A DNA stretch of 64,000 bases, taken from positions 2,294,001 to 2,358,000 of the forward strand of contig NZ_CP012418.1 of assembly GCF_001708405.1 (NCBI RefSeq), written 5' to 3'. Below are positions 55,854 through 63,581 of the stretch, piece after piece. Source of the DNA: Kangiella sediminilitoris (lineage in GTDB: Bacteria > Pseudomonadota > Gammaproteobacteria > Enterobacterales > Kangiellaceae). The notes below the pieces were generated by a model. The model did not search any database. It saw nothing but the letters and a program-made list of their open reading frames with translations, and was not told the DNA's origin. The translations under genes and the position numbers were made by a program. The stretch's first letter is position 1. Every line of letters starts with the position of its first letter.

Positions 55854-55884
55854 AAAAGTCTGGCTCAAAAGCCAGACTTTTTTT
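55854..55884. terminator. Terminator after the slipin gene, shared with pirin
   Basis: AAAAGTCTGGCT and AGCCAGACTTTT form a 12-bp stem with loop CAAA, followed by T residues on the plus strand and A/T-rich sequence for the minus strand. It overlaps the pirin stop codon. Confidence 0.88.
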
Positions 55885-56746
55885 AGGACAGTCGATTACC
55901 AAACTTTCCTGCCTTGAAGTCATTGAACGCCTGAATGATCTCTTCCTCACTGTTCATGACGAATGGTCCTGCACCCACAATCGGCTCATTTAAGGGCTCG
56001 CCGCTGAGAATTAACAAGGTGCTATCTTCTTTTGCCTTGATACTGATATCAGTTCCAGAATTATCGAATACAACCGTATCTTCCAGCGAAGCCTGGTGAC
56101 CATTAATATCAATAGCACCTTTCAGCACCACCACTATCGCATTCCAACCTTCTGGAATACTCAGGGACTGCTCAGCATTTTCCTGCATGACCAGATCCCA
56201 GACATTCACTGGTGAAAAGGTTTTTGCCGGTCCTTTAGCTGACTGATACTCTCCAGCTATGACACGTAGCAAACCACCTTCCAGCTCAATATTTGGAATA
56301 TCATCGGCCTTGATCGCCTGATAGCCTGGCTTAGTCATTTTATGCTTCTTAGGAAGATTAACCCATAGCTGCGCCATTTCCATCATACCGCCACGCTCAG
56401 TAAACTCTTTTGAGTGGAACTCATCATGAAGTATGCCGCCTCCAGCGGTCATCCACTGCACATCTCCAGGATAAATGGTCCCGCCTTTTCCAGTTGAGTC
56501 TCTGTGCGATACTTCGCCCTGGTACACAATGGTGACTGTTTCAAATCCTCTATGTGGGTGTTCTCCCACCCCTCTTGGCGTATCACTGGCATCAAAGTTC
56601 GCTGGCCCCGCATGATCGAGAAGCAGAAACGGGCTGATCTGCTGCCCCTTATTGTTATAGGCAAACAGTGAACGAACTGGAAAACCATCACCAACCCAGT
56701 GCCCGGCAGGTGCACGATAAATGCCGGCAATTGACTTAATACTCAT
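55883..56746 (-). CDS. Pirin-family cupin protein
   Basis: This 287-residue bicupin has the metal ligands of pirins in the N-terminal cupin: His63 and His65 in EHPHRGFETVTIVYQG and His107 with Glu109 in GGGILHDEF. Bacterial pirins act as quercetin-dioxygenase-like enzymes or as regulators; the substrate here is not known. It is divergent from the LysR gene, and that pair is a common arrangement, so the LysR protein probably controls it. Confidence 0.92.
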   Translation of the reverse strand: MSIKSIAGIYRAPAGHWVGDGFPVRSLFAYNNKGQQISPFLLLDHAGPANFDASDTPRGVGEHPHRGFETVTIVYQGEVSHRDSTGKGGTIYPGDVQWMTAGGGILHDEFHSKEFTERGGMMEMAQLWVNLPKKHKMTKPGYQAIKADDIPNIELEGGLLRVIAGEYQSAKGPAKTFSPVNVWDLVMQENAEQSLSIPEGWNAIVVVLKGAIDINGHQASLEDTVVFDNSGTDISIKAKEDSTLLILSGEPLNEPIVGAGPFVMNSEEEIIQAFNDFKAGKFGNRLS

Positions 56747-56858
56747 GGTGTAAACTCCCGCTTTTGGGCTGTTTCATTGATACCTTTGATTATATTGGCA
56801 TGACAATCATTCAACCAGAGGCTAAAATGACACAAACCGTTCTATTTATAGGACAATC

Positions 56859-57764
56859 ATGCAGGATCTCAATGATCTGTATTATTTTGCCCTGGTCGTC
56901 GACCATGAAGGGTTTGCCGCTGCCGAACGAGCTACCGGTATTCCTAAATCCAAGCTAAGCCGTCGTGTAGCTGATCTTGAGGAAAGGCTGGGGGTTCGAT
57001 TACTTCATCGTACTACCCGCCATATTTCTGTTACCGATATTGGCAATCTTTACTACCAGCATTGTCAGGCTATCCTGATAGAAGCGCAGGCAGCAGAAGA
57101 TGCCATTGAGCAAACCCGAAGTGAACCCTGTGGTTTAATACGCGTAAGCTGCCCTATCGCCTTATTACAAATCAGCATCAGTCAAATTGTTGCTCGCTTT
57201 ATGCAACAGAACCCAAATGTGGAAATAGAACTGCATGCAACCAATCGTGCCATCGATCTCGTGGAAGAAGGAATTGATGTCGCAATTCGGGTCAGGCCGC
57301 CGCCTCTGGCAGACAGTGACTTAGTTCTAAAAGTTTTAGGGCAAAGGACCCAGTGTCTTGTCGCAAGCCCGGACTTACTGTCCAGATATGAGACAATAAA
57401 CACGCCAGCCGATCTTACAGCTATACCAAGCCTTGGGCTGGGAGCCCAACAACACCACCATCAGTGGCATCTTTTTCATCACAGTGGCGAAGAAACTATC
57501 ATTAGTCATAACCCCCGCCTGCGATGCGGTGACATGGTTGCGCTACGTGAAGCAGCTGTTGGTGCTGTGGGTATCGTACAGCTGCCAACCCTGATGATTG
57601 AACAACAGCTTAGAGATCAATCGCTGGTACAGGTTTTACCAAATTGGACACCACGCCCGGAAATTGCTCATGCCGTATTTCCCTCTCGCCGAGGGCTTAT
57701 GCCTTCCATTCGACAGTTTCTAGACTATCTGGGCAATGAATTTCGTGAACTGGAGCAGGATTAA
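56859..57764 (+). CDS. LysR-family transcriptional regulator
   Basis: This 301-residue regulator has an N-terminal winged helix-turn-helix (about 1-60; LNDLYYFALVVDHEGFAAAERATGIPKSKLSRRVADLEERLGVRLLHRTTR, read in part) and a C-terminal periplasmic-binding-like effector domain. It resembles the group that includes YafC and relatives. Divergent transcription from pirin across a 112-bp gap suggests it controls pirin. Confidence 0.92.
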   Translation: MQDLNDLYYFALVVDHEGFAAAERATGIPKSKLSRRVADLEERLGVRLLHRTTRHISVTDIGNLYYQHCQAILIEAQAAEDAIEQTRSEPCGLIRVSCPIALLQISISQIVARFMQQNPNVEIELHATNRAIDLVEEGIDVAIRVRPPPLADSDLVLKVLGQRTQCLVASPDLLSRYETINTPADLTAIPSLGLGAQQHHHQWHLFHHSGEETIISHNPRLRCGDMVALREAAVGAVGIVQLPTLMIEQQLRDQSLVQVLPNWTPRPEIAHAVFPSRRGLMPSIRQFLDYLGNEFRELEQD

Positions 57765-57782: not shown

Positions 57783-57824
57783 AAATGAGAATCGTTTGCA
57801 TTTAAATTATTTTCAATGTATGAT
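57783..57824 (+). promoter_or_regulatory. Fur-box-like site over a sigma-70 promoter
   Basis: TGAGAAT-C-GTTTGCA (57786-57800) resembles the 7-1-7 Fur motif TGATAATNATTATCA; the left half matches in 6 of 7 positions, the right in 4 of 7. It overlaps a -35-like TTTGCA (57795-57800), with TATGAT 18 bp further (57819-57824), one mismatch from the -10 consensus. Repression by iron-loaded Fur would be the expected mode. Confidence 0.5.
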
Positions 57825-57830
57825 TCTTTC

Positions 57831-57975
57831 CATGCTTCGGTAATCGTTTAATTAGATAAGTTGGTGAACGGTTACTTACTAGTATAAGCCTTAACAGGTT
57901 GACAAAGAATTCCAATAATAATAATTGCTATCATAGGTCTCTTCACGCTATACCGCCCTGGTGGGCGGTTTTTTT
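57831..57975 (+). ncRNA. Candidate Fur-regulated small RNA
   Basis: From the predicted start near 57831 to the terminator at 57952-57975 there is about 145 nt with no convincing open reading frame: the only early ATG is stopped after three codons. The 5' part can fold as a 9-bp stem, GTAATCGTT and AACGGTTAC (one wobble), at 57840-57875, followed by an A/U-rich single-stranded stretch with AATAATAATAATT (57914-57926), the kind of site Hfq can bind. The layout (Fur box, promoter, short non-coding body, strong terminator) equals that of RyhB and PrrF genes. I cannot show sequence homology to either. Confidence 0.5.
57952..57975 (+). terminator. Intrinsic terminator of the candidate small RNA
   Basis: A perfect 7-bp GC-rich stem, ACCGCCC and GGGCGGT, with loop TGGT is followed by seven T residues. 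No annotated plus-strand gene ends here, which is why it points to a non-coding transcript. The minus-strand reading has no U-tract, so it does not serve the aspartoacylase gene. Confidence 0.9.
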
Positions 57976-57996: not shown

Positions 57997-58893
57997 TCAG
58001 CCAATATGGAATCGCTCTTTGCGAGACATGGCAAAAGCTTTTTTCTGATCATAGTAAGCGGCTTCGTTGACAAAGCTGATGTAACAGTCCTCACCTTCAT
58101 AAGCCACATCGTCACCATTCAACATTTTAAAAATCAGCTCACCATTTCGTAACAGTGTAAAATCTCGATCCTGAATATTTTTATGCACCATTCCAGCTAT
58201 TTCGCCCGATTCATCTACTGGCAAAAAAGTAAAATCGAAGTATCGGAAAATATCGATTGATTCTGAGGGTTGGGGCAATTCGTGGCGATTATATTGCTCA
58301 ATAAAATCCAAAATTAAGCGGACAGCCATATCAGTTTGATCAAACACGTCCTGACGCAGCTGCCCCTGTGGTACTGCCCCTACTTCTACCAAAACATGGC
58401 GCGGCGCTACTGTCATTAAAAAATGGTGATCCTTCATATCCTCAAGCGTAATATTAACGTTATCCATCCGCTGCTGGACATAATCAACCAACATCAGATG
58501 AAACGTATCGGTCTGGGTCAGCACCAGGTTGACTCCCATCGGTGCGGTAGAGGTATGCAAATCTATGATCATATCAGTTCTACTGTTGCCCTTAGGCCCC
58601 AGAGCCTGATTTATCTCTTTCGCTCGACGGTTCTCATAACCATCAAGTTCTTCATCATTTAAATCAGCCAGTCTGAAGCTACGGTTCAGATCATTATCAA
58701 TATATCGACGATTTGCTTCGAACGCTCTCAGGTTAGCATCGTATAAGTCGAGGTCGAAATTGTACTCACCGACACCACCCTGAATCTTGCGATATTTATC
58801 TAATAAATAGATACCAGTAAATTCGTTACCATGGGTGCCACCGACTAATGTCACATGGCCAACTTTATCTTTCCTCATACCTAAGATCTCCAT
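57997..58893 (-). CDS. Aspartoacylase-type M14 deacylase
   Basis: This zinc-dependent amidohydrolase of 298 residues should cleave N-acylated amino acids such as N-acetylaspartate. Zinc ligands His21 and Glu24 lie in GGTHGNE and His113 in DLHTS. Arg63, Asn70 and Arg71 lie in NRRYIDNDLNRSF, and the catalytic glutamate is Glu170 in VEVGAVPQG. These fit the human ASPA positions 21, 24, 116, 63, 70, 71 and 178 as I recall them, closer than they fit AstE. The ATG directly follows the nuclease stop codon (TAAATG), so translation is coupled. Confidence 0.9.
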   Translation of the reverse strand: MEILGMRKDKVGHVTLVGGTHGNEFTGIYLLDKYRKIQGGVGEYNFDLDLYDANLRAFEANRRYIDNDLNRSFRLADLNDEELDGYENRRAKEINQALGPKGNSRTDMIIDLHTSTAPMGVNLVLTQTDTFHLMLVDYVQQRMDNVNITLEDMKDHHFLMTVAPRHVLVEVGAVPQGQLRQDVFDQTDMAVRLILDFIEQYNRHELPQPSESIDIFRYFDFTFLPVDESGEIAGMVHKNIQDRDFTLLRNGELIFKMLNGDDVAYEGEDCYISFVNEAAYYDQKKAFAMSRKERFHIG

Positions 58894-61214: not shown

Positions 61215-63581
61215 ATGACAATGAAACCGACTAAATTAAGCTTACTAGTACTCAGTGTCCTGGCTACGAATAGTGCGCTAGCCGCAGAAAAGAATCTTAC
61301 AGGTATTATTACCGATGATAATGACCAGCCGATGGCCGGTATCGAAGTTAATGTACGTGCTCTAAACCTTACAGCCACCACGAACGAATCCGGTAGGTTC
61401 GTGTTTGATAACCTGGAAGAAGGACGCTACGTCCTTGATATCGAAGCGGGCCCTGACGGCCACATCAATCGCTCCATTCAGCATGATGGTAGCGAGCACA
61501 GTATCGAAATTACTCCAGATAATGCTGAAGTTATGGTCATAACGGGTAATCCACTTGAGCACTCCAGCCTCGAAATGGCTTCTCCCTCAGTAATTATCAG
61601 CGGCGAAGAACTGATTAAAAATCGCGGCGCCAATATAGGAGAAACCCTGGCACAAACCCCGGGCATCAATTTATCCAGTTTCGGTTCAGGCGCTGGTCGC
61701 CCGGTTATTCGAGGCCAACAGGGTAATCGCGTAACGGTTTTAAGCAACAACACCTCGACTCAGGATGCCTCAAACTCAAGTCCGGATCACTGGATTGCCG
61801 CAGAGCCGTTACTGGCTGATCGTGTAGAAGTATTAAAGGGTCCGGCTACATTACTTTACGGTGGAGGTGCAGTAGGCGGTGCAGTCAATGTGGTTGACCA
61901 TCGCATTCCGAAGCATCTCACAGATGGCATCGAAGGTGGCTTTGAGGCCCGCATCGCTGATGCTACTACAGGTGAGCGCACAACCGTCGGCACCGTTACC
62001 ACCTCGTCAGGTAATTTTGCGTTTAATCTAGACGCTTTTAAATCTAAAACTGATGATTATGAAATTCCTGGCTATGCTGAATCTTCTTATCTGCGTGAGC
62101 AGGAAGAAGCCGAGCATGCAGGAGAAACGGCGGAAGAGCATGCTGAGCATGAAGAAGAATTTGGCGGTACTTTGAACAATACCAATACCGATACTAAAGG
62201 CGGCAGCTTTGGTCTGTCTTATATCGGTGACGATGGTTATATCGGTGCCTCCTACACAGAGTATGATCGCTCCTACGGTCTACCTGGTCATGCTCACGAA
62301 GAGCCTATCCACGAGGGTGAAACGCCTGAAGAGCACGCCGAGCATGCCGAAGAAGAAAGCGTCATGATCGATGTTAAGCAAAAACGTTATGACCTCAAAG
62401 GGCAACTTGACGATCCGTTCGCAGGCTTTCAGAACCTTAAATTCAGCTATGCCAAGACCGACTATGAGCATATGGAAGTTGAAGGTGAAGCGATCAGCAC
62501 TCAGTTCACTAACGACGCACAGGAGCTTAGAGTTGAAGCCGTTCATAAAGCATGGCATGGATGGCAAGGGGCTTTCGGCCTCCAGCTGAGCGACAGTGAC
62601 TTTGCTGCCATCGGTGCAGAGACATTTATCCCCGGCTCTAATACTAAAAACTACGGTTTATTCTGGCTGGAAGAAGTGGATAAAGGTGACTGGCATACCG
62701 AGCTTGGTCTGCGAGTAGATAAGCAGGAAATTGATGTCGCTTCTGATGGCGCTTTTGCCGGTGCGAAACGCAACGACAATGCCTTCAGTTTTGCAGCGGG
62801 TACCGTCTGGCACATTGATGATAACTGGTCTTTACCAATTAACGCAGCATACGCACAGCGTCTACCGTCAGTTGAAGAGCTCTACTCGAATGCAGGAAAA
62901 GATGAAAGCACTTATGTACCACACTTAGCAACTCTGACAATTGAAGTGGGCAACCCAGAGCTCGATGAAGAAACTGCTAATAATTTGGATCTTGGTTTGC
63001 GTTACCATACCGATGACATTCATGCTTCGATCTCACTATTCCATAACCAGGTCTCAGACTACATTTATCTGGAACATGCTGAACATGAAGCTGATGGGCA
63101 TGATGGCGTTCACGAGGATCTTCCAATCTTGGAATATACCCAGAACGACGCAACCTTTACCGGACTCGAAGCAGAAATCGACTGGACCTTTGGTTATCAG
63201 GGCGATAAGTACTGGAAAGCAGGTCTATTCGCTGATTATACCCGTGCGACCTTAGATCAGGGCGGTTACCTGCCACGCACACCGGCTAAACGTTTCGGTG
63301 GTAATTTTGGCTTTGTCGATGGCGGTTTCAGTGCAGACTTCAGCGCAATCAAGGTCACCGATCAAACTCAGCTGGCGGAAGACGAATTACCAACAGATGG
63401 CTACACGCTAATCAATATGAACTTCGGCTATAGCATCTTCTTTGATAACTCTGATCTACTGCTATTCCTGAAAGGGGAGAATATGGCGAATGAAGAAATT
63501 CGTGACCATGCATCATTCTTAAAGGATAGAACGACCCGAGCAGGAAGAACTTTGTCAGCAGGGTTCCGTCTGACATTCTAG
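61215..63581 (+). CDS. ZnuD-like TonB-dependent receptor with His/Glu-rich loops
   Basis: This outer-membrane beta-barrel receptor of 788 residues probably imports zinc. After the signal peptide (ending LAA) a carboxypeptidase-regulatory-like domain (about 28-105) precedes the plug (SPSVIISGEELIKNRGANIGETLAQTPGI, VLKGPATLLYGGGAVGGAVNV). The barrel ends in Phe (GFRLTF). Loops contain His/Glu clusters: EEAEHAGETAEEHAEHEEE (about 295-313), AHEEPIHEGETPEEHAEHAEE (about 360-380, in parts), and HAEHEADGHDGVHED (about 624-638). These resemble zinc-binding loops of ZnuD. The second ATG (61221), 8 nt after GAGGAA, may be the true start. Confidence 0.9.
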   Translation: MTMKPTKLSLLVLSVLATNSALAAEKNLTGIITDDNDQPMAGIEVNVRALNLTATTNESGRFVFDNLEEGRYVLDIEAGPDGHINRSIQHDGSEHSIEITPDNAEVMVITGNPLEHSSLEMASPSVIISGEELIKNRGANIGETLAQTPGINLSSFGSGAGRPVIRGQQGNRVTVLSNNTSTQDASNSSPDHWIAAEPLLADRVEVLKGPATLLYGGGAVGGAVNVVDHRIPKHLTDGIEGGFEARIADATTGERTTVGTVTTSSGNFAFNLDAFKSKTDDYEIPGYAESSYLREQEEAEHAGETAEEHAEHEEEFGGTLNNTNTDTKGGSFGLSYIGDDGYIGASYTEYDRSYGLPGHAHEEPIHEGETPEEHAEHAEEESVMIDVKQKRYDLKGQLDDPFAGFQNLKFSYAKTDYEHMEVEGEAISTQFTNDAQELRVEAVHKAWHGWQGAFGLQLSDSDFAAIGAETFIPGSNTKNYGLFWLEEVDKGDWHTELGLRVDKQEIDVASDGAFAGAKRNDNAFSFAAGTVWHIDDNWSLPINAAYAQRLPSVEELYSNAGKDESTYVPHLATLTIEVGNPELDEETANNLDLGLRYHTDDIHASISLFHNQVSDYIYLEHAEHEADGHDGVHEDLPILEYTQNDATFTGLEAEIDWTFGYQGDKYWKAGLFADYTRATLDQGGYLPRTPAKRFGGNFGFVDGGFSADFSAIKVTDQTQLAEDELPTDGYTLINMNFGYSIFFDNSDLLLFLKGENMANEEIRDHASFLKDRTTRAGRTLSAGFRLTF

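Follow-up and report, generated by a model that had tools for sequence, protein, structure and literature searches.

The closest described counterparts of the locus reported here are RyhB of E. coli, PrrF of Pseudomonas, NrrF of Neisseria and HrrF of Haemophilus, which are Fur-controlled, stand-alone RNAs that end at a terminator and have similar iron-gene targets. NrrF reportedly acts on sdhA and sdhC. RyhB-like sRNAs are described in a review as having little or no sequence in common, yet as controlling similar transcripts (PMC9294342). BrrF of Burkholderia cenocepacia, an sRNA of iron starvation whose targets include sdhC and sodB, is reported to have no sequence similarity to known Fur-regulated sRNAs; it is located in the 3' end of the Fur-controlled haem-uptake gene hemP, is described as having no Fur box of its own and is apparently cut from the hemP mRNA (PMC7377471).

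No paper on Kangiella small RNAs or on Kangiella Fur was found in literature searches. This study concerns a stretch of 64,000 nucleotides of Kangiella sediminilitoris (NZ_CP012418.1, positions 2,294,001 to 2,358,000), hereafter the window, in which the segment 57784-57975 can be read with considerable confidence as a Fur-repressed gene for a trans-acting sRNA of Kangiella, pairing with iron-protein mRNAs and sparing iron. That the candidate is a genuine small-RNA gene is very probable. Its product looks like a lineage-specific functional analogue of RyhB, PrrF, NrrF and BrrF, and is a separate family by sequence. Like RyhB, PrrF, NrrF and HrrF, it is stand-alone, terminator-ended and predicted to be Fur-controlled, with similar predicted iron-gene targets; unlike in those RNAs, Rnf and LeuC are prominent among the predicted targets.

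At gathering thresholds, the Rfam search over the window returned only a tRNA. When the gap alone was searched at E up to 10, 11 weak matches appeared, the best of them GcvB (19.3 bits, where the gathering score is 42), and these were taken as chance; RyhB, PrrF, NrrF and HrrF were not among them. Membership of a known RyhB, PrrF or NrrF family, for which an initial annotation of this DNA had proposed such a search, was therefore not found even at that relaxed threshold. The RyhB/PrrF-type organisation that the same annotation had suggested is nevertheless supported by the conservation of box and terminator and by the iron-protein genes that lead the predicted targets.

Layout of the candidate unit

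The unit lies in a 232-bp gap between a LysR-family gene and a convergent aspartoacylase gene (Table 1). The initial annotation, made from the letters of the DNA, had described a Fur-box-like site over a promoter with TATGAT, about 145 nt lacking a usable frame and a closing terminator, and each of these was found as described, with no convincing gene in the body. Its statement that no plus-strand gene ends there was wrong, as the LysR-family gene stops at 57764 on that strand, so that in the window the terminator could serve another client; in four of the seven genomes carrying the unit, however, the upstream neighbour is a divergent pirin gene, and no plus-strand gene comes directly before the unit.

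Table 1. Features of the candidate unit and its neighbours, as positions in the window.
Feature	Position	Strand	Remarks
LysR-family gene	56859-57764	+	stops about 190 nt ahead of the terminator
Fur-type box AATGAGAATCGTTTGCATTT	57784-57803	+	overlaps the -35; identical at 17 of its 20 positions across 7 genomes
Promoter	57795-57824	+	-35 TTTGCA at 57795-57800, 18-nt spacer, -10 TATGAT at 57819-57824
Predicted small RNA, about 145 nt	57831-57975	+	5' end inferred from the -10; unit conserved in 7 of 20 genus genomes
Predicted hairpin at the 5' end of the body	57832-57885	+	sequence variable between species
AAN repeat AATAATAATAAT	57914-57925	+	candidate Hfq distal-face site; AAY repeats here in 7 of 7 genomes
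Seed linker AUAGGUCUCUUCACGCUAUA	57933-57952	+	inside 30 invariant nt; complementary to predicted targets
Linker part for rnfA	57933-57945		
Linker part for sdhC	57934-57943		
Linker part for leuC	57936-57947		
Linker part for sodB	57942-57952		
Intrinsic terminator	57952-57975	+	7-bp stem (57952-57969) and U tract, T residues up to 57975; in 7 of 7 genomes
Aspartoacylase gene	57997-58893	-	convergent with the candidate unit

Two observations on the neighbourhood may be recorded. The LysR gene sits between pirin and aspartoacylase (55883-57764 in the window) in G000 and G021 and is missing from that place in the other five unit-bearing genomes, which represents a local gene gain or loss. Further downstream, at 61215-63581, there is a TonB-dependent receptor closest to ZnuD (NF038289, 463.7 bits against a cut-off of 950, and thus not a member by that rule); the initial annotation had counted this ZnuD-like neighbour in favour of metal control, and no tie between it and the candidate unit was found.

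As single-sequence evidence, the box, promoter and terminator are not above chance. The window box agrees with the classical 19-bp GATAAT consensus at 12 of 19 positions, and 83 plus-strand places of the window score at least 12/19 against the same consensus. Between 57000 and 59000 there are three promoter-like sites where 4.1 are expected, and three terminator-like sites where 1.4 are expected. It is conservation that raises the candidate above the level of chance, since seven of the 20 genus genomes retain the box, the promoter and the 3' third, with freely variable DNA in between. In the alignment of the seven units, GTATGAT and the promoter spacing are invariant, as is AATGA-AA-C-TTTGCATTT of the box region, and 30 contiguous nucleotides (TGCTATCATAGGTCTCTTCACGCTATACCG) are identical throughout. 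Of the features that mark the class of iron-sparing sRNAs, the Fur box overlapping a promoter is present by sequence alone and with a weak consensus match; an independent short transcription unit with a terminator is indicated both by sequence and by conservation.

The predicted RNAs of the seven genomes range from roughly 145 to 200 nt, their bodies differing in sequence and length, and no common reading frame is apparent among them (the ATG near the 5' end is not kept in four of the seven). A 5' hairpin occurs in the minimum-energy fold of each. The fold of the window RNA has a z of -1.80, with 11 of 200 shuffles folding equally well; in consensus folding, the promoter-to-terminator alignment yielded 32 pairs, of which only two have both sides changed. 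The covariation term was +0.57, and the structure thus has little support from covariation. Features related to Hfq, namely the AAN repeat and a U tract, are present, the repeat being a possible site for the distal face of Hfq. Where the initial annotation had pointed to an A/U-rich stretch for Hfq there is this repeat, a candidate site that the present reading does not need. In stretches amounting to about one third of the genome, neither hfq nor fur was seen.

Distribution of the stand-alone unit

Conservation in close relatives had been set beforehand as a test, and both box and terminator are kept: the full unit is present in seven of the 20 genus genomes (G000, G017, G019, G021, G032, G033 and G034). 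A DNA search of 40 family genomes revealed two separate conserved blocks, one comprising box and promoter, the other linker and terminator. Matches at E up to 0.1 were obtained in 23 of the 40, from which seven long ones were kept; the others, mostly short chance matches, were dropped. The family model search matched 29 of the 40 at E up to 1. Fifteen weaker model or DNA matches beyond the seven, G028 and G026 (including G030, E 0.003) were checked in context, and none had box plus core.

An order-wide search with a model of the 3' part, at an E limit of 0.01, matched 12 of 394 genomes, eight of them in the genus. Of the four outside it (E 5.5e-4 to 8.5e-3), three were examined in context and are seemingly unrelated, and nothing convincing outside the genus emerged from this model among the 394 genomes of the order. 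Scanning 84,980 species genomes for a core 18-mer yielded six records, five from Kangiella and one from a Niastella MAG, the latter taken as a chance match.

Within the genus, the core was not found in ten of the 20 genomes (G016, G018, G020, G022, G024, G025, G027, G029, G030 and G031), among which G022, at 55% completeness, also lacks a match to the aspartoacylase neighbour. The sRNA was also sought in ten genomes by means of TCTCTTNACGC, which occurs at 29 places; all were examined and none was convincing. For the decamer TTACGCTCAC, with 72 places in five genomes, 30 loci and four of 20 further ones (those with a run of T residues no more than 50 nt away) were examined, none of them sRNA-like; three of the remaining 22 places lie in sodB leaders. 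The 72 occurrences of this decamer in G016, G018, G020, G025 and G027 compare with 11 for its reversed letters, and come partly from shared orthologous genes. On a midpoint-rooted tree of two proteins, aspartoacylase and SodB, core-bearing genomes lie on both sides of the root, and the core is therefore probably ancestral in the genus.

Predicted targets

Perfect matches to the linker were compared with two backgrounds of gene starts. The first, of 370 starts from -60 to +30, gave a single run of 10, none of 11, and did not take in the rnfA site, which begins at -65; after that site had been seen the background was widened to 745 starts from -100 to +40 (858 kb, 34% of the genome). Among these 745, the longest matches are to rnfA/rsxA (13 nt at -65), leuC (12 nt at -26, with GAGG as the adjoining ribosome-binding site) and sodB (11 nt at -27), followed by one run of 10 and two of 9. 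The top two carry the NCBIfam names RsxA/RnfA and LeuC above cut-off, and a second RnfA-like frame, as expected for rnfE, occurs about 4.5 kb downstream in four relatives. LeuC belongs to the Fe-S enzymes, and the operon that begins with rnfA includes genes for Fe-S subunits. The SodB protein is an Fe-type superoxide dismutase (NF007832, 351.4 bits, cut-off 348). The gene with the run of 10 is weakly like a mycosin-type serine protease, below the model cut-off, and those with runs of 9 encode a rhombosortase and an unnamed protein.

When 300 shuffled linkers were run against the 745 starts, the real count was reached by 215 for runs of at least 9 (real count 6), by 42 for at least 10 (4), by 7 for at least 11 (3), by 3 for 12 (2) and by 12 for 13 (1), so that in number the long matches stand out only moderately. 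The stronger point is that the top three matches are all genes of iron metabolism. The initial annotation had called for target prediction among Fe-S and haem genes, and the best predicted targets are indeed iron-protein genes. Complementarity to iron-protein mRNAs extends to sdhC (GTGATTAAAAAGAGACCTAAA), which is outside the 745-start sample and shows, at codons 4-7, complementarity over 10 nt with UAGGUCUCUU. In terms of duplex energy, one of the 370 starts is as good as or better than sodB, and 83 of the 370 as good as or better than sdhC, which is unremarkable. An 8-nt linker match (AAGAGACC) was also observed near the start of rlmD (L251:10608-11954, minus strand), which presumably encodes an Fe-S methyltransferase; it is weak and possibly marks a further target.

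The sodB leader of G000, TATAGCGTGAATAATCAGGAGATTAACATG, contains TATAGCGTGAA, the exact complement over 11 nt of UUCACGCUAUA, just 5' of the ribosome-binding site. Comparison between genomes shows that the sRNA end and the sodB site differ together between two clades, with CGCUAUA and TATAGCG in one as against CGCUAAUC and GATTAGCG in clade 2. Clade-1 sRNAs match clade-1 sodB leaders over 11 nt in six of seven cases (8 in G032) and clade-2 leaders over 6. The three clade-2 sRNAs, which end in CGCUAAUC, match their own sodB leaders (GATTAGCGT) over 9 nt and clade-1 leaders equally, over 9 nt (8 in G032). Position by position, two neighbouring pairs are altered on both sides and a third is gained; this amounts to one event on the tree, which supports the pairing without proving it.

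Runs at sdhC measure 10 in four and 8 in three clade-1 genomes and 7 in three clade-2 genomes, in two of the latter at a different place, and the core of G023 has lost the sdhC-pairing half. The leuC and rnfA sites were compared in four core-bearing relatives each, reached by synteny. That of leuC reads CGTGAAGAGACC in G034 (run of 12) and GTGAAGAGACC in G019 (run of 11), while in G017 and G033 an A replaces a G, cutting the runs to 5 and 6; at rnfA a GAGACCT core is present in all four relatives, with runs of 7 to 10. Neither gene was present in nine stretches of the core-less G018, and the comparison of these two sites thus covers core-bearing genomes alone. In genomes with no detected sRNA core, sodB still has its GCGT core and sdhC its AGACC, and some of the matching may therefore come from a different cause. 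The GCGT of such sodB leaders, as seen across the 20 genus genomes, is a hint of an undetected sRNA or of another regulator of sodB.

A second form near yqcC

In three of the 20 genomes the core is located near yqcC (G026, G023 and G028, in the last 364 nt from the yqcC match), and the core 16-mer AGGTCTCTTCACGCTA is exact in G026 and G028 and has two differences in G023. In G026 a box (AATAACGATTATCATTTGCATTT), TTTGCA, 18 nt and TATACT stand directly ahead of a predicted RNA of about 100 nt beside yqcC. In G028 and G023, core and terminator form the 3'UTR of a gene for a TonB-dependent receptor of haem/haemoglobin type (loci L277 and L278, respectively). The best model for the G028 receptor is TIGR01786, with 219 bits over the C-terminal 306 residues, the full-length cut-off of 323.75 not being reached; the G023 protein is 73% identical to it. 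Ahead of the receptor gene there is a Fur-type box (AATGATAATGATTTGCATTT in G028, AATGAGAATGATTTGCATTT in G023), each time with TTTGCA, 18 nt and TATAGT. The receptor is absent in G026, where the box comes directly before the core. Consensus scores are 14/19 for the G026 box and 13/19 for the receptor-gene boxes, all with TTTGCA as the -35.

The nearest precedent for the 3'UTR form is, by analogy, BrrF. The Kangiella RNA resembles it in the predicted sdhC and sodB targets and in the position of the core in the 3' end of a haem-uptake gene in G028 and G023, and differs from it in the unit's own promoter and box, in the window and in seven of the 20 genus genomes. The BrrF arrangement as a whole, lacking its own promoter and placed in the 3' part of a haem-uptake gene, is not that of the window, and its location recurs only in G028 and G023. 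Tentatively, the core may have begun as, or may be able to become, the 3'UTR of a Fur-driven haem-receptor mRNA, to be freed as a stand-alone, Fur-driven sRNA on loss of the receptor frame between promoter and core. If so, both states would coexist in Kangiella, in one clade close to yqcC in either case, and RyhB analogues would arise from the tails of iron-uptake messages, which would explain shared function and Fur control without shared sequence.

Alternative explanations

The conserved segment might be only the 3'UTR and terminator of LysR, or a terminator for the convergent genes, with no independent RNA. This fits G000 and G021, where LysR precedes the unit in the same orientation (with its end at 57764 in the window), but the same unit stands behind a divergent pirin gene in four of the seven genomes, so that no plus-strand gene directly precedes it there, and behind an SPFH gene in one, with aspartoacylase as the convergent neighbour in all seven. 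Given these three kinds of upstream neighbour, the unit is independent of LysR; moreover, a terminator needs neither 30 invariant nucleotides before its stem nor a conserved promoter, and the explanation is extremely doubtful.

It is very unlikely that a Fur-controlled sRNA with some other job, as a sponge, a regulator of uptake genes or the message for a small peptide, matches iron genes by chance. The best three of the 745 matches, all in iron-metabolism genes, use different overlapping parts of the linker; between clades the sRNA end differs in step with sodB; and for a peptide there is no apparent shared frame, as the ATG near the 5' end is not kept in four of the seven genomes. These points are set against the moderate excess of long matches over shuffled linkers and the persistence of GCGT in sodB and AGACC in sdhC in genomes with no found sRNA. 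That the box is not a Fur site, the RNA being under another regulator or none, is improbable. The 12/19 agreement of the window box, not rare in the window, would allow it, yet 17 of the 20 box positions are invariant in seven genomes, and the higher-scoring boxes of G026 (14/19) and of the haem-receptor genes (13/19) share TTTGCA as the -35.

Proposed role and significance

What the computation shows is a conserved unit, its complementarity to target genes and a coordinated sRNA/sodB difference between two species groups; that the unit is transcribed, that Fur binds it and that control by the RNA runs towards repression, we infer. Iron-loaded Fur on the box would block the overlapping -35, and when iron is scarce Fur would leave the box and the RNA would be made. 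The AAN repeat and U tail may hold Hfq. The linker would then pair just upstream of the ribosome-binding sites of leuC and sodB, at early codons of sdhC and further up the leader of rnfA. Pairing with these four messages, and probably with others, would block translation and speed decay, and the lower synthesis of iron-using enzymes would spare iron.

New here are the family as such, Rnf and LeuC as predicted targets, and the occurrence within a single genus of one core in both a stand-alone and a receptor-3'UTR form. If the RNA is real, Kangiella gains a counterpart of RyhB of unrelated sequence, with Rnf and LeuC among its strongest predicted targets beside SodB and SdhC. The free-standing and 3'UTR forms within a single genus would then offer a concrete system for how unrelated bacteria re-invent iron-sparing RNA.
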